This document shows positions 11,244-32,122 of a DNA stretch of 62,033 nt, piece after piece. The notes beneath the pieces are model-generated. The model made no database searches, was not told the DNA's origin, and was given only the letters and a program-made list of their open reading frames with translations. Position 1 is the first letter of the stretch; each line of letters starts with the position of its first letter. The position numbers were made by a program, and so were the translations under genes. This DNA comes from a virus. The stretch lies in IMG/VR virus record IMGVR_UViG_3300043777_000073, positions 1-62,033 of that record; one strand, given 5' to 3'.

Positions 11244-11338
11244 ACGTACGATGTCCGACTAGGCGCTTCCGGGCTAGGCAGTGCACGTCAACGTTCGGTG
11301 ACGCAAGGCAAGGGCCCTTCGGGGCGTAGGAGCGAACG

Positions 11339-11644: not shown

Positions 11645-12392
11645 ACGCAACGCAATCATCGGGGCCGCCGCGTGCGCGGTGGGGCCCGTTCCGGCGATGG
11701 CCGGCACTTCGCATCGCGACAAGTACGGCAAGCTTTGGGAAGAGGGACCGTATGCGTCGCCAGCGCGGCAGGAACTGGCAGAGATACTGCTCGCGGTGCC
11801 GGGGGTGGCGCGGGTGGCGACAACGAGTCCGAACCAAGAGACCAACGCGTGCGGCATACGGTGCACGACGGAGGCCGGTCGCGATTGGTATACCGGCTGC
11901 CTGCAATTCAAGGACGAAGCCCCACGCCCGCAAGAGGCTCTCTGGGAAGAGTTGCGCGACACGACGGCGATGGACGTCGTCATCCGTGGCGATAGCGCGG
12001 AGACGCTTCTCTGCGAAGCTACGGGTGAGCAGAACCGAGCGTTGATTGACGCCAGCAATCTGAATTGGGAGGCGAAGAAGTGGCCGATTGAGGCGCTGGA
12101 GGCGTCGATGCTGGAGCGTCTGCGAGCGACGCCTGGCGTCAGATACGCTCGGGCGCCACGGACGGAACATCTCGGGCGTCGTGCCGACTTCGTCCACGTT
12201 TGCATGTCGGATGGGTGGCACCTTGAATGGGACAAGGACACCAAGCCGTTTTGGCCCACGAGAGAAAGGCTGCTGCGTCGCGTGCTCACGACTGGGCCGT
12301 ACGAGATACAACGCTTCACGGAACGGCGGCGTGCGATAAAAGCGAGGTCTAGAACCCACCAGCGAAACGTGGTAACGAGAGAGAGCCTGTAG
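11631..12392 (+). CDS. Putative exported protein with Tat-like signal
   Basis: 253 residues from ATG 11631; GGAG lies 8 nt upstream. The N-terminus MSITRRNAIIGAAACAVG has a twin-arginine, a hydrophobic stretch and a possible AMA-G cleavage site near residue 25. The rest is soluble, with scattered Trp and no recognised fold. An exported protein among early phage genes is unusual. If the signal is real, it could act at the envelope. Confidence 0.6.
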   Translation: MSITRRNAIIGAAACAVGPVPAMAGTSHRDKYGKLWEEGPYASPARQELAEILLAVPGVARVATTSPNQETNACGIRCTTEAGRDWYTGCLQFKDEAPRPQEALWEELRDTTAMDVVIRGDSAETLLCEATGEQNRALIDASNLNWEAKKWPIEALEASMLERLRATPGVRYARAPRTEHLGRRADFVHVCMSDGWHLEWDKDTKPFWPTRERLLRRVLTTGPYEIQRFTERRRAIKARSRTHQRNVVTRESL

Positions 12393-12404
12393 GAGGGCAC
12401 AATC

Positions 12405-13223
12405 ATGGCATTCGGAAAAAAGAAGGTCGAGATCAACTACAATCAAGCCAATGTCGCGATGCTCGCGGCGGATGCACTCAAGAAGTCTAGAGCGGTGCGT
12501 GTCCGCCTGGCACTGCGGCTGACGTTCGATACGCCGCTTCTCATGCAGCGGTGGACGACGAAAGCGGTGCGGCAGATGCTCGGGAAGATGGTGGGCATGC
12601 CCGAGCCGAAGGTCTCGAAGGATCTAACGAAAGACTTCGAGGAGTCGTACTACCGGAACACGAACGGCGAGCCGGTTATCCCGTGCCGCGTCATCAAGGC
12701 GGCAATCGTCTCCGGGGCCATCGCAACGGGAGATGTCGTCACGAAGGCGGACCTCAAGCGAAGCTTGCGGGTCATCGGCTGGACGGCCCCAGTCGTGTTC
12801 AAAGGCGCGAAGACCATGAGCACCATGATCGTTCGCAACAGCGGCGGCCAGCCTGACGTTCGTGCACGCGCGGAGTTCCCTGTCGGTTCAACCGTCGACA
12901 TCCTTGTCGAGTTTGGCGTGCCGCTCACGCCGGACAAGGTGATGGCCGCCATCGAAGCCTCAGGCGTCGCTATCGGCATTGGCGAGTGGCGACCTGAGAA
13001 CGGCGGCGAGCTTGGGACGTTCCACGTCGACATCTTGAAGAACGACAAGGCGGCGCACGACCGAATCATCAAGGCGACGAGCGTGCCGGAGGACGAGTTC
13101 GTGATTCCGCCCGAGATGCTTCGGACGCTGGAGAGCATTCCAGTGGAGAAGCTAAGCGACTCCGCGCGCAAGGTTCGGTCGTTGGCGGATCACATCGGAA
13201 AGCAGAAAAGAACCGGGACTTGA
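12405..13223 (+). CDS. PLLMxR-family protein, locus 1 (possible RAMP-like nucleic-acid binder)
   Basis: 272 residues; AGGAGGG precedes ATG 12405. Marked motifs are TPLLMQR at 43-49, EPVIPCRVIKAAIVSGA near 89-105, RARAEFP near 153 and a Gly-rich IGIGEWRPENGGELGTF at 190-206. The protein at 18792 has the same four blocks (SPLLMNR; KPMLPGENLMACLIAAG; RPRFD; VGLCDFRPARKGVFGKF), so the two are homologous although distant. Similar proteins occur in other phages without a known job. The C-terminal Gly-rich segment recalls the loop of RAMP proteins such as Cas7, but that is inference. A ribbon-helix-helix gene and a 5-nt-phased array follow directly. Confidence 0.8.
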   Translation: MAFGKKKVEINYNQANVAMLAADALKKSRAVRVRLALRLTFDTPLLMQRWTTKAVRQMLGKMVGMPEPKVSKDLTKDFEESYYRNTNGEPVIPCRVIKAAIVSGAIATGDVVTKADLKRSLRVIGWTAPVVFKGAKTMSTMIVRNSGGQPDVRARAEFPVGSTVDILVEFGVPLTPDKVMAAIEASGVAIGIGEWRPENGGELGTFHVDILKNDKAAHDRIIKATSVPEDEFVIPPEMLRTLESIPVEKLSDSARKVRSLADHIGKQKRTGT

Positions 13224-13224
13224 A

Positions 13225-13473
13225 ATGACTCGAGACAAGCAGATCAATTTCCGCGTTTCCGAGGACGAGGCGGCCCGATTCGATCGTGTCGCCGAGCACT
13301 ATGGGCTGGCGATGGCAGCGATGATTCGGATGCTCGTGAAGGAGAAGGGACGATACCATACGGGGACGTCGAGGCAGGCATGGTCTCCACCGGATTGGAG
13401 CGGCAAGGACGGGTTAGGCATGGCAGGCAAGGTTTCCACCGGATCGGAAAGTCCAGCACCGGCATCGGACTAA
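13225..13473 (+). CDS. Ribbon-helix-helix protein, locus 1
   Basis: 82 residues, one base after the previous stop. Residues 5-42 are a CopG/Arc-type RHH: QINFRVSEDEAARF, then DRVAEHYGLAMAAMIRMLVK. The first strand and two helices are complete. From about residue 50 the sequence changes to low-complexity Gly/Ser/Lys, which is simply the translation of the downstream pentamer array, so the natural end may have been near 46. It could bind operators or the array DNA. Confidence 0.75.
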   Translation: MTRDKQINFRVSEDEAARFDRVAEHYGLAMAAMIRMLVKEKGRYHTGTSRQAWSPPDWSGKDGLGMAGKVSTGSESPAPASD

Positions 13474-13758
13474 ACTCCGAACGCATAGGAAGTCAACGGC
13501 TTGGCGAGGCAGGAGTGTCTAGGAGCGGCTTCGTGGGTTCACGAACGGATGGGACCGGCGTGGCAAGGCAGGCAAGGCAGCGATCGAATCGGCGTCGCAT
13601 GGATTGGATCGGCACGTAGGGGTCAGGTATGGCAGGAACGGATAGGATAGGCGCGGATAGGATACGGAATGGATTGGCAAGGCAGGCGTCGATTGAAGCG
13701 TAGAGGATAGGAGCGGCACGTATCGGTCATCACCTGATTGGACCGGCATGGCAGGCAC
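13373..13758 (+). repeat. Degenerate 5-nt-phased GGNNN array, locus 1
   Basis: About 55 GG dinucleotides occur in 386 nt. Successive GG starts lie mostly 5 nt apart, or 10, 15 or 20 where a unit is degenerate; for example 13635, 640, 645, 650, 655, 660, 666, 671, 676, 681. All steps of 4 are GGCAGG. Common units are GGCAA, GGCAT, GGATT, GGATA and GGATC. G is enriched on the coding strand. The part after 13473 is non-coding. It is not a CRISPR array, since there are no constant repeats. Confidence 0.85.
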
Positions 13759-13780
13759 TGAAAACATGTAGGAGGACAAC

Positions 13781-14362
13781 ATGAAAAGAGCACCGACGAA
13801 AACGAAGTACAGGTTCAGGCTCATCCAAGACGAGTCACTCGCGCAGCTTGCGGGAGTCGAACTGACGAAGCTGGCAGAACAGCTGAAGGTCAACGACATC
13901 CGGCAGCTAGACGCCGCGACGGTCTGTGACATCGTTCTCAACGACAAGAAGCACCCGCTGAGAAAGCTCCCGATCTGGGGAGACTTCGATACCAAGACAG
14001 CGGCCCGCAAGCACTGGATCGAAACGACGCGTCGGCTCATTTCTGGGATTCAGATCGTGACGTACCATGTCGGCAAACGAGAGCACGTGAGCCCGATGTT
14101 TGTGAGCGCCGAGGCCCCAACGAAGAAAGAAGGGTCGAGGGCGACACGGCGATCGCACGTGATGACGGCCGACAGCTTGGCGCATGACCCGGTATTCATG
14201 TCGGCGGTCGGGACCAAACTGCGGACGATTTTTCATACGCTGCAGAGTTTGGAGCAGTACACGAGCGCGAGGCAGGTCCCCGAGAACCTGAGTGAACTTC
14301 TGGCTACTATCCGAGAGGCGGTGGACGCGTACAACGGAACGATGGCGAGCGAGGCAGCGTAG
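13781..14362 (+). CDS. Hypothetical 193-residue protein
   Basis: ATG 13781 with GTAGGAGG 7 nt upstream. The protein is basic at the start (MKRAPTKTKYRFRLIQDES), then helical, with a long helix near the end. No motif recognised. It is the first gene after the array and may share its transcript. Confidence 0.7.
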   Translation: MKRAPTKTKYRFRLIQDESLAQLAGVELTKLAEQLKVNDIRQLDAATVCDIVLNDKKHPLRKLPIWGDFDTKTAARKHWIETTRRLISGIQIVTYHVGKREHVSPMFVSAEAPTKKEGSRATRRSHVMTADSLAHDPVFMSAVGTKLRTIFHTLQSLEQYTSARQVPENLSELLATIREAVDAYNGTMASEAA

Positions 14363-14449
14363 GAGTCCAGACATCGCACGTCCCGATGCGGTTCGGTAAC
14401 GCTAGTATGGGCAACGCTAGACAAGGCAAGAGGCTTCGGTCTGAGCACG

Positions 14450-14848
14450 ATGAGCAAACCGAAAGCACCACGAATCCCGACGGGACTGAGCAAGCACGTC
14501 AGCATGCGTGGCTTGGCCGTTCGAGTCGCGAAGGCCAGTGGGGAGCCAGCCCACAACGTGGAGATGAAAATTCGCAGGCAACTTCTCAAGTGGCTTGCTC
14601 ATGACGTCCAGCAAGGGCTCAACCCCACTTGGATGTACCGCGCTCCGCACTCACGGACGTGGCGGATCAACCTCAGCGCTCTGCGGGCGGCGCACAAGGA
14701 ATTTTTCGAAGATCCATTGCCTCAAGACTTGGAAGCCAGGATCGAAGCGCTCGAGACCGAGGTCGACGAACTCAAGTGGGCGCGCGACACGATGGCGACC
14801 GAGATCGGAAAGCTCAGGGGCGCGGTCGAGGGGAGGGCCGGGGCGTGA
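14450..14848 (+). CDS. Putative DNA-binding protein with coiled coil
   Basis: 132 residues. Residues 10-75 are basic and helical with Arg/Lys/Trp (MYRAPHSRTWRINLSALR), suggesting nucleic-acid contact. Residues 88-125 form a coiled coil with leucines every seven (EARIEALETEVDELKWARDT). Role unknown; it could be a regulatory or nucleoid-type protein. Confidence 0.6.
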   Translation: MSKPKAPRIPTGLSKHVSMRGLAVRVAKASGEPAHNVEMKIRRQLLKWLAHDVQQGLNPTWMYRAPHSRTWRINLSALRAAHKEFFEDPLPQDLEARIEALETEVDELKWARDTMATEIGKLRGAVEGRAGA

Positions 14849-14907
14849 GGCAGACAGGCGATCTGCGAAGCGCTAGAACAGTGAACGCGCGCTCACGCTT
14901 ATCCCAC

Positions 14908-15384
14908 ATGAAAAATGTGCGTGTCAAGTGGGACCTTTTGCATGGTATAAGGCAGCGTAACTCAATGGGAAATATCCAAACGAAATCGAAGCTACTGAAG
15001 CTCATCAGGAAAGAGGAGCAGGTTTGCCGTTCGCCAGAGCCACGGGTCGGTGCGGCGCAAATCATGAAGCGCGTCAATCGCTCCGAGGGCGAGTTCGTGA
15101 AGCACGCAGCGGAGAACCACGACGTTCGCATCTGGCGCCACGGGTGGCCGGACTTCTTGCTGCAAGACAGGTCGACCGGGAAGACCTACGCCGTCGAGGT
15201 CAAGCGCGGTAAGGACGTTGTGCGGGAGAGCCAGGCGGCGATGTTCGTTGCACTTGAGGCGGCGGGCATCCCGGTCTACGTGTGGAACCCGGCCGTGCCG
15301 AATCGACTGAGGCATTGGCGGAGCTACGCCGAGTGGAAGCCGGAGCCGCCACGGGAGTGGTATGAGCGCTGGGGAAAGAAGTAA
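14908..15384 (+). CDS. VRR-NUC type nuclease
   Basis: About 158 residues from ATG 14908 (ATG 14965 is an alternative). The core reads GWPDFLLQDRSTGKTYAVEV, then KRGKDVVRESQAAMFVALEA. It holds the PD-(D/E)xK residues D, E and K of VRR-NUC proteins, followed by the QxxxxxxLexAGIPVYVW block. These stand-alone nucleases cut branched or flap DNA in phage replication and recombination. The first 60 residues are helical. Confidence 0.8.
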   Translation: MKNVRVKWDLLHGIRQRNSMGNIQTKSKLLKLIRKEEQVCRSPEPRVGAAQIMKRVNRSEGEFVKHAAENHDVRIWRHGWPDFLLQDRSTGKTYAVEVKRGKDVVRESQAAMFVALEAAGIPVYVWNPAVPNRLRHWRSYAEWKPEPPREWYERWGKK

Positions 15385-15389
15385 TCTAC

Positions 15390-15635
15390 ATGGCCAGATC
15401 GTTCACGCTCCAGAACGGCGACATCCTCGTGATTCCAGAGGGCATTCATACGGAGACGGTGAGCCCGTGGCACCCGTCGGTCACTGGCGGCCGCGCCGTG
15501 GTCGAGGTCCAGCGGATCGAAGCCTTCGCGGCCAGCCTCAAGCGGGCGGCGGAGTCCGTCGACTTCGACTTCGTCGCGCGGTTCTCGCGCAGGCCCGAGC
15601 CCAGCGCGGAAGCTGAACCACAGTCGCGAACTTGA
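15390..15635 (+). CDS. Hypothetical 81-residue protein
   Basis: Starts 5 nt after the nuclease stop. Beta-rich first half (RSFTLQNGDILVIPEGIHTE), then a helix and DFDFVARF. Last gene of the rightward early region. Unknown function. Confidence 0.6.
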   Translation: MARSFTLQNGDILVIPEGIHTETVSPWHPSVTGGRAVVEVQRIEAFAASLKRAAESVDFDFVARFSRRPEPSAEAEPQSRT

Positions 15636-15661
15636 CCTATGTCGGTGGCCACGTATCGTCA

Positions 15662-15680
15662 CGCGATGCCATGCATCGCG
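15662..15680. promoter_or_regulatory. Perfect 8-bp inverted repeat with 3-nt loop
   Basis: CGCGATGC-CAT-GCATCGCG. Could be an operator or the stem of a terminator, but no T-run follows. Confidence 0.5.
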
Positions 15681-15689
15681 CATCAAGTT

Positions 15690-15740
15690 AGTAGGAGTCG
15701 CGCGCTGGACCAGGCCTCCCTTCGGCTCGGCCCTCCTACT
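15690..15740 (+). terminator. Possible early-region terminator
   Basis: AGTAGGAG (15690-15697) pairs with CTCCTACT (15733-15740). The arms enclose GC-rich sequence that can also fold, and the stem is followed by CGTTTCGTTT. The loop is long, so the call is tentative. Confidence 0.35.
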
Positions 15741-15783
15741 CGTTTCGTTTGGTGCGCTCACCCAGCCCGACTCCGCTAACGCA

Positions 15784-15813
15784 TTGCGTAGGTTGCACGT
15801 GGAAACGTAGTAA
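15784..15813 (+). promoter_or_regulatory. Possible promoter for packaging and structural genes
   Basis: TTGCGT, 18 nt, TAGTAA. The expected start near 15820 is directly before the inverted repeat at 15825-15839. Confidence 0.35.
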
Positions 15814-15824
15814 TCACACATGCT

Positions 15825-15839
15825 TGCGTAATTGACGCA
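15825..15839. promoter_or_regulatory. Possible operator (inverted repeat)
   Basis: TGCGT-AATTG-ACGCA, a 5-bp inverted repeat just after the expected transcription start. A regulator bound here could block the structural operon. Confidence 0.35.
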
Positions 15840-15851
15840 CGCAATTTCATC

Positions 15852-16361
15852 TTGACCCCACCCGCCAAGCCTCGCCGCAAAGCCAGATACGCAAAAGACG
15901 ACGCCCGGGCGGTAGACGCCCTAGAGCGCCAGCGCAAGGTGCTTGAGCTTCGGATCAAGGGCTTCGGCCACCGGGAGATCGCCAAGGAGCTTGGCATCGC
16001 GGTGGGGACCTCCCACAAGGACACCGAGCTTGGCCTCAAGGCCCTGCAACCGCTCGAAGAGGCGGAGGTCTTGCTCGGCATCGAGCTTGCGCGCCTGGAC
16101 CGCTACCAGAAGGCGCTCGACGACGGCGCGGAGTCTGGGGACGCCCGGAGCGTGCTGGCCGCGCTGAAGATCATGGATCGGCGGGCCAAGTACCTCGGCC
16201 TGGATGCCCCGGCGCAGCTCGAGCACTCGGGCACCCTGAAGCACATCAACGTTGACCCTTCCAAGCTCAGCGACACCGAACTTCGAGACCTTGCGTCAGG
16301 AGCTTGGCCCCAGGCCCCCGGCGGCGATGGTGGCAGCGGCGGAGCTGGAGCGGCGGCGTAG
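15852..16361 (+). CDS. terS: Terminase small subunit
   Basis: About 169 residues. The N-terminal HTH (RKVLELRIKGFGHREIAKEL, then GIAVGTSHKD) would recognise packaging DNA. A helical oligomerisation region (ELARLDRYQKALDDGAESGD, then ALKIMDRRAKYLGLD) is the usual core of such subunits. It sits directly before and overlaps the large subunit. The first codon appears to be TTG 15852, since no ATG or GTG lies between the last in-frame stop (15789) and the HTH. The Gly/Ala-rich tail is encoded in the overlap. Confidence 0.8.
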   Translation: MTPPAKPRRKARYAKDDARAVDALERQRKVLELRIKGFGHREIAKELGIAVGTSHKDTELGLKALQPLEEAEVLLGIELARLDRYQKALDDGAESGDARSVLAALKIMDRRAKYLGLDAPAQLEHSGTLKHINVDPSKLSDTELRDLASGAWPQAPGGDGGSGGAGAAA

Positions 16362-17733
16362 GCTTCGCACGACGGGCCTGCTCGACTTCGTTCCGCTGCT
16401 CAGCCCGCAGTGGGATAGTCCGAAGCACCTTGAGCCGCTCACGTCGCGCTTCGAGCGCGCGCTGATCGAACCGATTCGCTTTCTCTTCAGCGTCCCGCCG
16501 CAGCACGGCAAGACGGAGACGGTCGCCCACGGCATCGTCTGGACGATGCTGCGCGACCCTACTCGGTCGCACATCTACGTCACCTACCAGACCAAGCGAA
16601 CGCGCGAGGTCAGCATCCGAACCCGCCAGCTCGCTGAGCGCGCAGGGCTCCGGCCGGAAGGCACGCAAGACCTCTGGCGCCTGCCGGAGGGCGGGCAGAT
16701 AAGCTTCACCTCCTTCGACGGGCAGCTGGGCGGTACGCCCGCGTCCGGTCTCATCATCGTCGACGACCCGCACAAGAACCGGCAAGAGGCCGAGTCGTCA
16801 ATCGTACGAGAGCACGTCTGGAGCGAGTTCAACTCGTCGGTCATGACTCGTATGCACAATACGACATCGGTCGTGGTCATCCACACGCGCTGGACGACCG
16901 ACGACCTCATAGCGCGGCTCGAGAAAATCGACGACCCGATTGAGCCAGAGCGCAAGCTCTGGCCCTACACGAACCTGCCGGCCATAAGCGAGGCGGGCGA
17001 GCTACTTTGGCCCGAGCACAAGTCGCGGCGTCTCATCGAAGAGGCCCGGGCGCGAAACGAATACGCGTGGTGGTCGCTCTTCATGGGGCAGCCGAGACCC
17101 CCAGGCGGCACGGTCTTTCACGACGTGCAGTTCTATGACGAACTGCCCAAGACCTACCGCGTCGCCTTTGGCCTGGACCTCGCGTACACGGCGAAGACAC
17201 GCAGCGACTACTCGTGCGCGGTCGTGCTCGCCGAGAGCGGCGGCAACTACTACGTACTAGACGTCAAGCGGGCGCAGTGCCCGACGCCGGAGTTCGCCCC
17301 CAAGCTTCGGGAGATCAAGGCGTCGTACCCGGGCGCGCAAGGTCTCTGGCACACGTCGACGACGGAGCCGGGAACCGCGGACTTGCTCCGCGAAGTCCTC
17401 GGATTCCACATCCGCAGCGAGCTTGCGCGCGGTGACCCCTTCCAGCGCGCTCAGCCCGTCGCGGCAGCCTGGAACACACGCGAGGGGCATCCGGGCCGCG
17501 TTTTCCTTCCCCGCGACAGGCCGTGGGTCGAGGCGTTCGTGTCCGAGCTTGTGAACTTCACCGGGGACCCGAAGCGCCACGATGACCAGGTGGTCGCGCT
17601 GGCGTCCGCGTATCAACTGCTCTCGATGGGGCATGCGGAAGTGCCCCGAGCCTTCCCGACCAAGTTCACGAAGCAGACGGGCGGCGGCCCCGTGTTCCCC
17701 GAAGGCGGCAAGGGCGGAGGATTCGTCTGGTGA
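16327..17733 (+). CDS. terL: Terminase large subunit
   Basis: 468 residues from ATG 16327 (a TTG at 16252 would add 25). The ATPase has Walker A SVPPQHGKT (residues 55-63) and Walker B LIIVDD (142-147). A VVVIHTRWTTDDL motif contains the coupling residues. The nuclease starts at FGLDLAYT (D284) and ends with RHDDQVVALASAYQ. The protein translocates DNA into proheads and cuts the concatemer. The overlap with the small subunit is 35 nt. Confidence 0.92.
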   Translation: MVAAAELERRRRLRTTGLLDFVPLLSPQWDSPKHLEPLTSRFERALIEPIRFLFSVPPQHGKTETVAHGIVWTMLRDPTRSHIYVTYQTKRTREVSIRTRQLAERAGLRPEGTQDLWRLPEGGQISFTSFDGQLGGTPASGLIIVDDPHKNRQEAESSIVREHVWSEFNSSVMTRMHNTTSVVVIHTRWTTDDLIARLEKIDDPIEPERKLWPYTNLPAISEAGELLWPEHKSRRLIEEARARNEYAWWSLFMGQPRPPGGTVFHDVQFYDELPKTYRVAFGLDLAYTAKTRSDYSCAVVLAESGGNYYVLDVKRAQCPTPEFAPKLREIKASYPGAQGLWHTSTTEPGTADLLREVLGFHIRSELARGDPFQRAQPVAAAWNTREGHPGRVFLPRDRPWVEAFVSELVNFTGDPKRHDDQVVALASAYQLLSMGHAEVPRAFPTKFTKQTGGGPVFPEGGKGGGFVW

Positions 17734-17930
17734 ATGACGTTCAGCTCGTGTGCACATGCGGTCGGCACTTCTACCACTACGCCACCAAGGCGTACGTCGC
17801 GCGCCTGTCCTCGGGCCTTGTCGTGCTCAAGCCTCACTCGTGGCCGCCGTGCGTGCAGAAGCTCGACGCCGAGCGGCTCGAGCGCGCCGAGGAGATCACG
17901 CGAGACGATCTGCCCGCGGTGCTCAAGTGA
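17730..17930 (+). CDS. Small Cys-containing protein
   Basis: 66 residues from GTG 17730 (GTGA overlap with terL). CTCGRHFYHY and a later CVQKL could form half a zinc ribbon. Unknown. Confidence 0.55.
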   Translation: MNDVQLVCTCGRHFYHYATKAYVARLSSGLVVLKPHSWPPCVQKLDAERLERAEEITRDDLPAVLK

Positions 17931-18436
17931 GCAACCTCGCGCCGTACTCGCCGCAGTTCCGTGTCCGAACGGATGCGTGGGGAAAAGATGAGACGAAGCC
18001 GGCGACCCCCGTGGTCGCGAGGCAGCCGGTCATAGATTGGATCAGGGCGAACGCGCCGGACCTTCGGCTTGGAAAACTCGCCAGCTGTGAGCATTGGAAC
18101 GAGACTGAGAAACGCAGCGAGCGCTTCGAGCATCGCCGCTGCATTGCGGCGTTCACATTCGACGGAGAGCGTTTCAACCTGGTCTCGTGCGCTGGCGTAG
18201 CCGAGGATCCAGACGATCACGTCATCCGACTTTGCGAGGATGCGCTGCGCAAGGCGATGAAGATCGAGGCCGCCCAGGGCCGGCCGCGTGAGCCCGGACT
18301 CGAGCAGCAGGTCATCGAAGCGGAACTCCAAGGCGACGCTTCCGAAGTGGCCAGACTGACGCAGCTTCTCATCGGCGGCCAACCCCGCGATCCAGATCGG
18401 TTTCGACCGATACCAATTCGACAGCGACAAGTGTGA
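17927..18436 (+). CDS. Hypothetical 169-residue protein
   Basis: GTG 17927 (GTGA overlap). Mixed alpha/beta, with CEHWNETEKRSERFEHRRC in the middle and a charged helical end (EQQVIEAELQGDASEVARLT). Last gene of this rightward run before the minus-strand cassette. No family recognised. Confidence 0.6.
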   Translation: MSNLAPYSPQFRVRTDAWGKDETKPATPVVARQPVIDWIRANAPDLRLGKLASCEHWNETEKRSERFEHRRCIAAFTFDGERFNLVSCAGVAEDPDDHVIRLCEDALRKAMKIEAAQGRPREPGLEQQVIEAELQGDASEVARLTQLLIGGQPRDPDRFRPIPIRQRQV

Positions 18437-18467
18437 AAACTAGAAGGCCCCAGCCCATCGCTGGGCC
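18437..18467 (-). terminator. Intrinsic terminator for the minus-strand cassette
   Basis: Reading the minus strand: stem GGCCCAGC (18467-18460), loop, and GCTGGGGCC with one bulged base, followed by TTCTAGTTTT. The stem is 8 bp. It would end the transcript that starts at 19674-19702, after the array. Confidence 0.65.
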
Positions 18468-18479
18468 AGGGCCGTCTCC

Positions 18480-18791
18480 TTGCATCACGTCGCGCTACCA
18501 CGCTCAGCAGAGCACTGGCATAGGACGCAGGACCGTGCCACACGAGAACCAGCCACGCCGTGCGCGACCCCGCGCTGCCGGAGCTTGCGCCTGATTGATA
18601 GTTCCCGCCCGAGCCTTCCGACGCGAACGGGAATCCTTGGATTGCATTGCCTGGCCGGACCCGACGACGGCCCAGGGCGCAAGGCCGCACGCGGCGTCGA
18701 CCCGCCACGCAGTGCCGAACCTCGGATGGCATCTCATTGCCGAGCGCCGCGAAACGACACCTGGCGAAGCCCGGCACAGCGCTGCCCTAAT
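18480..18791 (-). repeat. Degenerate 5-nt-phased array, locus 2
   Basis: Between the stop of the PLLMxR gene and the terminator there is no gene. On the minus strand the sequence divides into pentamers that mostly start with G (for example GCAGC GCTGT GCCGG; later GCCAG GCAAT GCAAT). GG starts seen as CC on the plus strand at 18635, 650, 655, 660, 685, 705, 715, 720, 740, 760, 770 and 785 are all in one 5-nt phase. Nearer 18500-18580 the phase shifts once and continues. More degenerate than locus 1, but with the same strand and position relative to the gene. Confidence 0.7.
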
Positions 18792-19409
18792 TTATTCAGC
18801 CGCCGCCGAATGCTCGACGCGGTCCCACCGCTCGACGACGAACTTCCCGAAGACCCCCTTGCGGGCAGGGCGAAAGTCGCAGAGGCCGACTCGTTTCCCA
18901 GCGAGGTCCCATAGCTGCCGGATCGTATTCTCGCCGATCTCGGCATCGTCTAGTTCGATGCGTACGTGGAACGCCCAGCGGTCAAACCGAGGGCGCACGA
19001 TGCAGACCGCTTCGTTGCCGTTCGGGTTGACCCCCTTACGGACGTCGGGCTCCCAGGCGACCGCCTTTTTATCGTTGTCGGGGTCAACGAGCGGCAGCGC
19101 GAAATCCAGCATCGACATGAGTCCCGGCAGGATGGTCGACTTGCCAGTGCTGATCTGCCGCTTCGCGTCGAGGCGCACGAACACGCCTGCCGCAATGAGG
19201 CACGCCATCAGATTCTCACCGGGCAGCATCGGCTTCCCGTCGTGCAAATATAGCTTCGGCTCCGCATCTTCGCGCGGCGTGCGGACATGTCCAATGTCCT
19301 TCGCCTTTGGCTCCTTGACCTTCGTCCTAAGTTTTTCGAGGACGTTGTCACCGACTCGGTTCATGAGTAGTGGCGACGTTCCTCTGCACTTCACTCGAAT
19401 CAACAACAT
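18792..19409 (-). CDS. PLLMxR-family protein, locus 2
   Basis: 205 residues; a GGAGAAGG ribosome site precedes ATG 19409. Blocks: SPLLMNR (12-18), KPMLPGENLMACLIAAG (59-75), QISTGKSTILPGLMSMLDFA, NGNEAVCIVRPRFDRW and the final VGLCDFRPARKGVFGKF (174-190). It is shorter than the locus 1 homologue, which has about 30 extra residues at the N-terminus. Metagenomic phage proteins with this pattern are unannotated. The glycine-rich end with RP and FG resembles nucleic-acid-binding loops, which is inference. Confidence 0.8.
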   Translation of the reverse strand: MLLIRVKCRGTSPLLMNRVGDNVLEKLRTKVKEPKAKDIGHVRTPREDAEPKLYLHDGKPMLPGENLMACLIAAGVFVRLDAKRQISTGKSTILPGLMSMLDFALPLVDPDNDKKAVAWEPDVRKGVNPNGNEAVCIVRPRFDRWAFHVRIELDDAEIGENTIRQLWDLAGKRVGLCDFRPARKGVFGKFVVERWDRVEHSAAAE

Positions 19410-19490
19410 GACGAGCCCTTCTCCCCATATTTCGGGGTGCCGTGGATAACGATGCGCTGAACTACAATGCCAAGCCGTGCGAAGGCTGGC

Positions 19491-19667
19491 CTACTCGTCT
19501 TTGACTTTTCCCTCCCCATGCCGCCTCCGATACTCCGCACGGACCATCCGTCGGAGCACGTCGGCCTTCTCAGTGCCGTCGATATCCGCCAGTAACGCCA
19601 GCATTCGCGTCTCATCCGTGGAAAGACAGAGCGTGAATCTGAAGGGGCGGCGGGCGATGCGAGGCAT
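19491..19667 (-). CDS. Small ribbon-helix-helix-like protein, locus 2 (leaderless)
   Basis: 58 residues, MPRIARRPFRFTLCLSTDET onward, then LALLADIDGTEKADVLRRMV. The strand FTLCLS, the helix TDETRMLALLADI and the helix KADVLRRMVRAEYRR follow the CopG/Arc RHH pattern and match the locus 1 protein in layout. ATG 19667 is 6 nt from the -10 element and has no ribosome site. It is the first gene of the cassette and lies 81 nt before the PLLMxR gene. Probable autoregulator. Confidence 0.65.
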   Translation of the reverse strand: MPRIARRPFRFTLCLSTDETRMLALLADIDGTEKADVLRRMVRAEYRRRHGEGKVKDE

Positions 19668-19673
19668 GCGGAT

Positions 19674-19702
19674 TAGCTACGCCAACACATGCGGACAGTC
19701 AA
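19674..19702 (-). promoter_or_regulatory. Promoter of the minus-strand cassette, leaderless
   Basis: Minus strand: TTGACT, 17 nt, TAGCTA, then ATCCGC and ATG. Spacer and gap to the ATG equal those of the promoters at 4094 and 6603. Confidence 0.65.
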
Positions 19703-19712
19703 CGGAAAAGAG

Positions 19713-19889
19713 ATGAAACAGCAAGACAAGCCGGCGCCATCGCGCAGGCCACGACATGGCACGCGTCGCGGACCGGCCCCCGAGGTCATCATCCGGCCGC
19801 GCCGGCACTACACGGGCGCGACGGGAGCGAGCATCGGGGACCTTCCCGAGCGCGCCGAGTTCGATCGCGGGAGCCGCGTCATCAAGTGA
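19713..19889 (+). CDS. Hypothetical basic 58-residue protein
   Basis: ATG 19713 with GGAAAAGAG upstream; ATG 19689 is an alternative. Arg/Pro-rich (PSRRPRHGTRRGPAPEVIIR), probably mostly disordered. It begins a new rightward run and overlaps the next start as GTGA. Confidence 0.5.
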   Translation: MKQQDKPAPSRRPRHGTRRGPAPEVIIRPRRHYTGATGASIGDLPERAEFDRGSRVIK

Positions 19890-20083
19890 CCCAGCCGACG
19901 CAGGCGCAGCTCGACTACGTCGAATGGGCGTCGCTCTGGCCGCTCGACAAGCCCGAGCCGCATCTCCCCTACGGCACCCGCTGGCGCTACTTCCGCAGCC
20001 TCTACAACGCGCCCACCCTGACGGGCCTCTTGCTCGGCGTCTTCCGTACGCCCTGGATGCAGGAGCGCCTCGCCGCCACATGA
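19886..20083 (+). CDS. Hypothetical 65-residue protein
   Basis: GTG 19886 (GTGA). Aromatic-rich (DYVEWASLWPLDKPEPHLPY). No family recognised. Confidence 0.5.
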   Translation: MTQPTQAQLDYVEWASLWPLDKPEPHLPYGTRWRYFRSLYNAPTLTGLLLGVFRTPWMQERLAAT

Positions 20084-30919: not shown

Positions 30920-32122
30920 ATGAAGACCCTTCTGTCACTCACCAAGGACCGCGACGACGCTCTCAAGGCCGTGGCTTCGGCTACGAGCGCGGGTGCGCGC
31001 AAGAAGTCGCTTGCCTCGCTCGAGGCCGCGTCGCTCGCTCTGGCCAAGTTCCAGGCTCAGCTCGCATCCAAGGCGGCAGCTCGCAAGCCGGTCGCCGCCG
31101 TCGACGCCGACGAGGAGGATAGCGACGACGAGGAAGAGGAGAGCGAAGAGGAAGAAGAGGAGTCGACCGACTCATCGGACGACGAGCCCAAGAAGCCGAT
31201 GGAGAAGAAGTCCAAGAAGGCGAAGGCCAAGTCGAAAGACAAGGACGACGACTCCGACGACGATGACGGGGACGACGACGACGACGAAGACGAAGAGGAA
31301 GAAGACGAGGAGGAAGAGGACGACGAAGAGGAGACCTCCGACTCCGAGGACGACGACGAGGAGGAAGAGGACGAGGAGGACGACGAAGAGGAAGAGGAAG
31401 AGCGCGCCGCAAGCGCGTCGGCCCTCGCGTCCGCTCGCTCGGTGCTTTCGGCGGCCAAGAAGGCAAACGACCGCCGCGCCATCACCTCGGCCCGCGCCCA
31501 CTTCAAGTCCGTCAAGTCGGCCGTCGCCGCCATGAGCAAGACCTCGGCGCGCTACCACAAGCTCAAGGCCGTCTGCGCCGCTGTCACCGGCAAGAAGGGC
31601 CTGCAGAGCATCCTCGGCGGCATCCAGGGTCTCGCGGTCAAGGCCGCGCAGGAAGAGGCCAACACGCGCGACATCGCCAAGATGAAGGCGGCCTCGAAGG
31701 CCAAGCGCGTGAACGACATGCTCGCGCAAGCGGTCGCCGACGGCAAGATCACACAGAAGACCGTGCCCATCCTGCGCGACGGCATGACCAACACCAAGAC
31801 GCTGCGCGCGTACCTCGGCGCTCTGCCGAAGCTCGTGCGAAGCACCAAGGATCCCGAGCTTGTCGGGCGCACGCTTCGTGGCAGCACGGACGCAACGGCC
31901 GACAAGGACCGCCAGGAAATCCTCGACTTCCAGGCGCTCAGCCCCGACCTGCAGAAGTACGTCACGCAGGAAGCCGCTGCGCAGGGCAAATCGATCGACG
32001 ACTTCATGAAGTCGATGCAGGCCGTGTCGGCGAAGGCTGGCGGCGGCGTGTCTCCCATCGCGGTCAAGCGGGCCGAAGCGGACTTCATTCCCCACCGTTC
32101 GAACGGTGCAGCAGGTCAGTAA
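30920..32122 (+). CDS. Scaffolding protein with very acidic linker
   Basis: 400 residues. A helical start (residues 1-55), then about residues 60-165 are nearly all Asp/Glu/Ser with a Lys patch (MEKKSKKAKAKSKDKDDD). After that a helical region (KAASKAKRVNDMLAQAVADG) and an end LSPDLQKYVTQEAAAQGKS resemble the C-terminal domain of the Mu gpI/Z scaffold family. Separate from its protease, unlike Mu gpI. The acidic run is encoded by low-complexity GAG/GAC codons. Confidence 0.75.
   Translation: MKTLLSLTKDRDDALKAVASATSAGARKKSLASLEAASLALAKFQAQLASKAAARKPVAAVDADEEDSDDEEEESEEEEEESTDSSDDEPKKPMEKKSKKAKAKSKDKDDDSDDDDGDDDDDEDEEEEDEEEEDDEEETSDSEDDDEEEEDEEDDEEEEEERAASASALASARSVLSAAKKANDRRAITSARAHFKSVKSAVAAMSKTSARYHKLKAVCAAVTGKKGLQSILGGIQGLAVKAAQEEANTRDIAKMKAASKAKRVNDMLAQAVADGKITQKTVPILRDGMTNTKTLRAYLGALPKLVRSTKDPELVGRTLRGSTDATADKDRQEILDFQALSPDLQKYVTQEAAAQGKSIDDFMKSMQAVSAKAGGGVSPIAVKRAEADFIPHRSNGAAGQ

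Follow-up and report, generated by a model that had tools for sequence, protein, structure and literature searches.

The viral DNA IMGVR_UViG_3300043777_000073, analysed over its whole length of 62,033 nucleotides (hereafter the window), very probably carries two separate loci of VIPR (Viral Interference Programmable Repeat), and these are divergent members of a known system. VIPR is an RNA-guided phage system described in 2026, which consists of Vipr (a phage-encoded ancestral RAMP), a guide RNA (vrRNA) and an accessory gene, and in which the small CRISPR-like protein and its guide find and silence rival viral DNA (preprint PMC13142463). Vipr is small (~20 kD) and has the RAMP fold (an RRM core) with a glycine-rich loop and without a second RRM, and the vrRNA comprises 9-16 YNNGG repeats (GGY/NN pentamers or a related consensus) with a structured 3' tail. 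The target is double-stranded DNA; pairing is confined to the NN dinucleotides, and between one dinucleotide and the next a target base is skipped. The accessory genes, vap1-6, are DNA-interacting, the systems fall into seven types, of which type II is found in Escherichia phage SUSP1 and a Pseudomonas fulva prophage, and VIPR has been proposed as a forerunner of class 1 CRISPR (PMC13142463).

We assign the two loci to VIPR based on a family-profile match to a solved Vipr structure, the RAMP/Csm3 folds of both proteins, the 5-periodic arrays, the accessory gene, the skip rule recovered from the arrays of relatives and the hairpin tails. The original prediction, made from the sequence of the window, took the two loci for a new system; that part falls, as VIPR has been described (PMC13142463) and PDB 36pp is the solved structure of the 'SUSP1 Vipr protein'. 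VIPR, which represents a second way of recognising DNA with an RNA guide, was up to now known from one preprint, and here it is met again by unbiased reading of raw sequence.

The window proteins and the Vipr family

A family profile places both window proteins, vipr1 and vipr2 (Table 1), in the Vipr family, and their predicted structures have a RAMP fold. As originally predicted from their PLLM motif, the two are homologous; both match phrog_4652 and they can be aligned with 17% identity and common P-L, F, G-x3-G, R-P and G positions. A profile of the family (36 homologues, including both window proteins) matches one PDB sequence, 36pp_D, with an E-value of 6e-15 over profile positions 3-183, and it is on this family profile, not on single sequences, that the link to 36pp is based. 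The AlphaFold models of vipr1 and vipr2 match Csm3/Cas7 chains with Z-scores of 11.8 and 12.4 over 156-170 residues, i.e., most of the RAMP domain, and thereby exceed the Z-scores of 7-8 that count as common for the fold-search tool. Foldseek returned E-values of about 5e-7 for both models, and RAMPs belonging to crRNA complexes populate the match list of the fold search. The suggestion that the glycine-rich end recalls Cas7-like RAMPs is thus borne out, and a conserved G..G, RP, G..G motif lies at the C-terminal end of the Vipr proteins. The fold spans residues about 30-216 of vipr1, with the N- and C-terminal extensions that make up its extra length lying outside, and the size of vipr2 fits that of a small Vipr without a second RRM. 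A function can now be given to phrog_4652, formerly 'unknown', and a lead is gained on phrog_15946, the family of the gene downstream of array 1.

Pentamer periodicity of the arrays

Downstream of vipr1, GG pairs at a lag of 5 number 33, whereas dinucleotide shuffles give 10.6 +/- 2.9 (z 7.8). At locus 2 the signal from GG alone is weak (z 1.6), but with all five columns of the pentamer considered, array 2 reaches the top statistic (G=87.0, nominal p 1.9e-13) and is therefore the stronger array. The phased arrays originally described accordingly stand as GG every 5 nt at locus 1 and as G, not GG, every 5 nt at locus 2. The four most 5-periodic 150-nt stretches of the window, at 18636 (G=87.0), 13601 (77.7), 18471 (50.6) and 13321 (46.6), all belong to the two arrays, and the best stretch outside the two loci reaches a G of 36.0. 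None of 1000 dinucleotide shuffles attained the periodicity observed for h1, h2, g3-g4 or g6, and the same test gave no signal in the arrays at periods 4, 6 and 7. A reading of the 5-nt phase as a low-complexity or coding artefact, arising by chance in GC-rich DNA, draws on the GC-richness of the window and on a first reading made by eye; these controls, together with the conservation of arrays and vipr across hosts of many phyla, leave it practically no probability and it is already refuted.

In array 1 the guides are bounded by GGCAGGC/GGCAGGA separators at 13373, 13422, 13508, 13567, 13631, 13681 and 13750, and a GGCAGG separator is common to the arrays of vipr1 and of four relatives (L010, L011, L012 and L039). 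Both tracts of array 2, h1 and h2, repeat a fixed triplet [C/G/T]-G-[C/T] followed by NN and end in tail hairpins of -20.9 kcal/mol (z -2.65) and -28.8 kcal/mol (z -4.59), respectively. No support was obtained for the hairpins that g1 and g2 had seemed to have at their 5' ends (z +0.6 and +1.0), and reading the guides as peptides against Pfam and PHROGs gave one weak, chance-like match. Rfam returned no match for the window arrays at an E-value of 1 and no CRISPR RNA family in 12000-20000.

Table 1. Positions of the two VIPR loci, their predicted parts and neighbouring vrRNA-like units in the window.
Feature	Position	Strand	Description
v1, vrRNA-like unit	11257-11325	+	11 in-phase [C/G/T]GY-NN pentamers and hairpin GCCC-UUCG-GGGC
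vipr1, predicted RAMP protein, 272 aa	12405-13223	+	phrog_4652, E 2e-13; AF2 pLDDT 86.6; Csm3/Cas7 fold, Z 11.8; PLLM at 44
RHH1, small ribbon-helix-helix protein	13225-13473	+	weak RHH/RelB/NikA matches; RHH part, residues about 1-41
Array 1, six guides g1-g6	13373-13756	+	5-periodicity, GGCAGG[C/A] separators; fixed GG[A/C] and two variable bases
g1	13377-13421	+	9 units
g2	13426-13507	+	~16 units (16.4 pentamers), phase slip
g3	13512-13566	+	11 units
g4	13571-13630	+	12 units
g5	13635-13680	+	~9 units (9.2 pentamers), phase slip
g6	13685-13749	+	13 units
Accessory gene (vap candidate)	13781-14362	+	function unknown; phrog_15946 family
v2, vrRNA-like unit	14375-14442	+	11 pentamers and UUCG hairpin AGGC-UUCG-GUCU; kept in relatives L008 and L009
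Array 2, tract h2	18442-18589	-	about 24 pentamers 18589-18470, hairpin tail 18477-18442; G=55.4
Array 2, tract h1	18601-18786	-	hairpin tail 18636-18601 after 30 pentamers at 18786-18637; G=86.4
vipr2, predicted RAMP protein, 205 aa	18792-19409	-	phrog_4652, E 1.8e-20; AF2 pLDDT 82.1; Csm3 fold, Z 12.4; PLLM at 13
v3, vrRNA-like unit (tentative)	19432-19491	-	about 12 pentamers, between RHH2 and vipr2
RHH2, small ribbon-helix-helix protein	19491-19667	-	sequence pattern by eye; homologue upstream of vipr in L010

Homologous loci and the origin of the two cassettes

Single-protein scans of IMG/VR with the window proteins found no relatives and an 8-sequence alignment was too divergent as a query; protein-only scans with a 3-sequence alignment (A2) gathered 83 loci, some in viral contigs and others in the genomes of bacteria belonging to many phyla. 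One candidate from Caballeronia (H50) was rejected as a chance match to an oxidoreductase gene. The periodicity test was applied to 90 vipr loci, including phage and plasmid records, and in 78 of them the 5-periodicity of some stretch surpasses the highest value reached by any shuffled locus, so that homologues do carry the phased array. Significant arrays lie within 1.5 kb of vipr in 74 cases, the majority downstream, and 2366 of 2372 GGY probes fall on the vipr coding strand.

Two of the collected loci deserve separate mention. On an Azospirillum plasmid (L107, 3078-3150), vipr is followed by a single short run of pentamers and then by a hairpin with perfect pairing (GAAGGGCGGC-GTCA-GCCGCCCTTC), and this is a one-guide VIPR outside a phage record. 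Gordonia phage MakoManhole (L116, 2884-3240 and 1640-1780) has VIPR pentamer tracts next to nearly identical copies of a piece resembling a tRNA T-arm/acceptor (GGTTCGACTCCCCACCCGAGC), in which ARAGORN found no tRNA and Rfam no match; such a piece could signal where the guide RNA is processed. Rfam likewise gave no match for L001, L115 and L116.

The Vipr of locus 1 is 65% and 54% identical to those of L010 and L011, with which it groups in the tree (support 100/100). That of locus 2 shows at most 30% identity and forms a long, isolated branch on the side of LESphi2, HY02, Medea1 and Trine (83/87). The tree test speaks mildly against a shared clade of vipr1 and vipr2 (p-AU 0.039; the branches are long), and the two probably belong to different Vipr lineages. 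The description of the loci as a duplicated module is misleading for this reason, but the separate arrival that was also suspected is consistent with the 17% identity and the different lineages, and the gene orders do differ as described (protein-RHH-array and RHH-protein-array). The vipr2 cassette is about 1.28 kb (18437-19715) and antisense to the surrounding genes. The genes that flank it are directly adjacent in a relative phage, L008, whose TerL is 82% identical to that of the window; thus, the cassette behaves as a self-contained insert. L008 has neither of the two vipr genes, as phrog_4652 was not found in its 90.9 kb contig. The window portal is nearest to that of Myxococcus phage Mx4 (36%, in a match that covers part of the protein).

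The skip rule and the search for targets

The arrays of relatives also bear on how the guides are read. Exact matches of consecutive dinucleotides from their GGY arrays were sought at skips of 0-4 in the collected DNA outside arrays, without using data from the published work. With 8 units, a skip of 1 gave 39 matches in vipr genes and one elsewhere, as against 0, 0, 2 and 2 matches for skips of 0, 2, 3 and 4. Most of the skip-1 matches go back to a single guide, carried by a Sphingomonas prophage (L039, 4009-4050; identical in L067). Its dinucleotides correspond to the codons of the conserved Vipr motif E-D-M-V-R-V-G-M, the wobble position of each codon being left out, and they agree in 16 of 16 letters with about 19 vipr genes besides that of the prophage. 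At this site the prophage's own vipr reads EDMVRIGL (V to I, M to L and Arg CGN to AGG) and matches in 13 of 16 letters, which suggests self-escape by recoding. With 7 units, guides of L022, L075 and L090 also match vipr genes of other loci. Judged by these matches, the relatives' arrays independently support the published 1-nt skip rule.

Several observations weigh against the assignment to VIPR. The single window Vipr sequences match 36pp weakly (E-values of 0.16 and 2.1). The excess at skip 1, which comes from relatives' arrays and not from the window's own, stems from few guides: the 8-unit matches have three source loci, and one and the same prophage accounts for two of these. Array 1 departs from GGY, with A in 20 of 47 third positions, and no structured tail was seen in it. 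The first G of the fixed triplet is mostly gone in array 2, and its tracts of 30 and 24 units exceed the published 9-16. A search of IMG/VR with the 8-unit cores of h1, h2, g6 and g3 returned 5, 3, 6 and 4 matches with flanks at chance and hence no target; none was found for g4 in 16 related viral contigs with 3 mismatches allowed (0 matches), nor for the remaining window guides in the sequences collected for the analysis. For a metagenomic phage, such a null is weak evidence either way.

These points could be accommodated if the arrays were VIPR-derived but drifting relics, with a decaying fixed motif and guides that no longer work. The degenerate fixed triplets of both arrays, the phase slips in g2 and g5 and the targets not found for the window guides searched are in keeping with such decay. 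However, both vipr genes are intact, the tail hairpins are strong, and in array 1 four of the six guides run from one separator to the next without any loss of register, over 9-13 units. Moreover, the third fixed base of array 1 (C 22, A 20, T 5; n=47) resembles that of L010 (A 32, C 24, T 3) and not that of L011 (C 62, T 20, A 2), A being present at 52 of 109 third positions in vipr1 and L010 vs 2 of 89 in L011 (Fisher p 2e-14). The vipr1/L010 lineage thus uses GG[A/C] in place of GGY, and since the array of L010, whose Vipr is 65% identical, has the same preference, the motif was likely inherited rather than decayed. We therefore consider relic arrays unlikely.

A DNA operator read by the ribbon-helix-helix (RHH) proteins, in place of a guide RNA, would account for the pentamer arrays less well still. 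A small RHH protein does adjoin each array, as originally predicted, though it is recognised by weak matches in RHH1 and by eye in RHH2, for which no Pfam match was found. RHH proteins bind DNA in other systems. Yet homologues of RHH1 occur in none of the 82 other vipr loci and those of RHH2 in one (L010), although arrays are present in nearly all; the arrays keep to the coding strand; and the dinucleotides of relatives match vipr codons at a skip of 1 only, which an operator leaves unexplained. This alternative is very improbable. A guide RNA read by Vipr, which the published system has (PMC13142463), also agrees with the original proposal that the phased nucleic acid is the ligand of the RAMP protein.

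Further guide-like units and neighbouring genes

The span 12405-19702 first proposed does contain both loci, but the system seems to reach beyond the two loci as then given, to units at 11257 and 14375 and to the accessory gene at 13781-14362. A log-odds scan with a model trained on the array-2 tracts scored v1 at 19.7, compared with maxima of 10.8-17.8 in 10 shuffled windows, and v3 at 17.4, at the edge of these maxima. In L008 (6721-6905) and L009 (1010-1080), vrRNA-like pentamer tracts lie upstream of the homologue of the gene at 14450-14848; vipr was not found in the sequence of L008 or L009 examined, and the tracts are possibly guides used in trans. With more doubt than confidence, we suggest that the window encodes two VIPRs of different lineages, each with its own code, viz., GG[A/C]-NN bordered by GGCAGG (Vipr1) and [C/G/T]GY-NN ending in a hairpin tail (Vipr2), the single guides at 11257 and 14375 being read in trans. 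If so, guide RNAs can be shared without a Vipr protein, and the relaxed fixed triplets show how far the VIPR guide scaffold can drift.

The gene at 13781-14362 has homologues flanking vipr in 73 of 82 loci and is therefore the best candidate for the accessory gene of the vipr1 clade; members of its family match phrog_15946 at 1e-23 to 1e-26. With RHH1 and RHH2 counted as further candidates, either locus has at least one small accessory gene of a DNA-binding type. The first separator, GGCAGGC at 13373, falls inside the RHH1 open reading frame (ORF), and the last half of this ORF is thus array sequence. Just downstream of the VIPR1 region lies a gene for a VRR-NUC/Holliday-junction-resolvase-like nuclease (14965-15384; Pfam VRR_NUC, E-value 3e-9). 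Elsewhere in the window, an 18-bp unit (GGCGCCGCTCGCGCCGTG) is repeated in tandem at positions 1-127, in 7 perfect copies, and long GAC/GAG-rich tandem repeats form an acidic repeat region (31102-31402) in the ORF at 30920-32122.

Proposed mechanism

By analogy with the published system, each array would be transcribed and cut into vrRNAs, with GGCAGG[C/A] perhaps serving as the guide borders in array 1 and each tract of array 2 ending in its own hairpin tail. Vipr would assemble along the RNA as a polymer with one subunit to each pentamer, and the fixed triplet would thereby be kept from pairing. The exposed dinucleotides may then base-pair with double-stranded DNA at a three-base step in which one base, usually the codon wobble, is skipped, and the binding would block transcription of genes of a competing phage or satellite. 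With this phage the known systems gain two divergent members whose fixed motifs are relaxed, along with possible guide units at a distance from any vipr gene. These are of use for asking which bases of the scaffold Vipr requires and whether VIPRs that share a genome act orthogonally.

Comparison with known systems

Locus 2 resembles the type II VIPR systems (SUSP1 and the Pseudomonas fulva prophage) and their likely relatives (LESphi2, Medea1 and Felixounavirus HY02): its Vipr is a small RAMP, the dinucleotides of its pentamers vary, it is carried by a phage and includes an adjacent small gene, and its hairpins may correspond to the structured 3' tail; vipr2 differs in its fixed motif, [C/G/T]GY instead of GGY, its 24-30 units and its hairpins. 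The VIPR loci with a phrog_15946 accessory, which are most of L010-L092 and come from phages and prophages of Mycobacterium, Gordonia, Sphingomonas and Rhizobiales, share with locus 1 a homologous vipr and the gene at 13781-14362, and L010, L011, L012 and L039 share the GGCAGG separators as well. They differ from it in the third base, which is preferentially A/C in vipr1 and L010, and in lacking the terminal extensions of vipr1. No CRISPR repeat-spacer array or further cas genes were met beside the window RAMPs, the neighbours being RHH, VRR-NUC, unknown and structural phage genes. With the backbone of class 1 CRISPR-Cas (Csm3, Cas7 and Cmr4), VIPR shares the RAMP fold, the G-loop and oligomerisation on a guide RNA with periodically displaced bases; unlike it, VIPR has a single small phage-encoded RAMP, direct pentamer arrays without repeat-spacer units and one target base skipped in every three.

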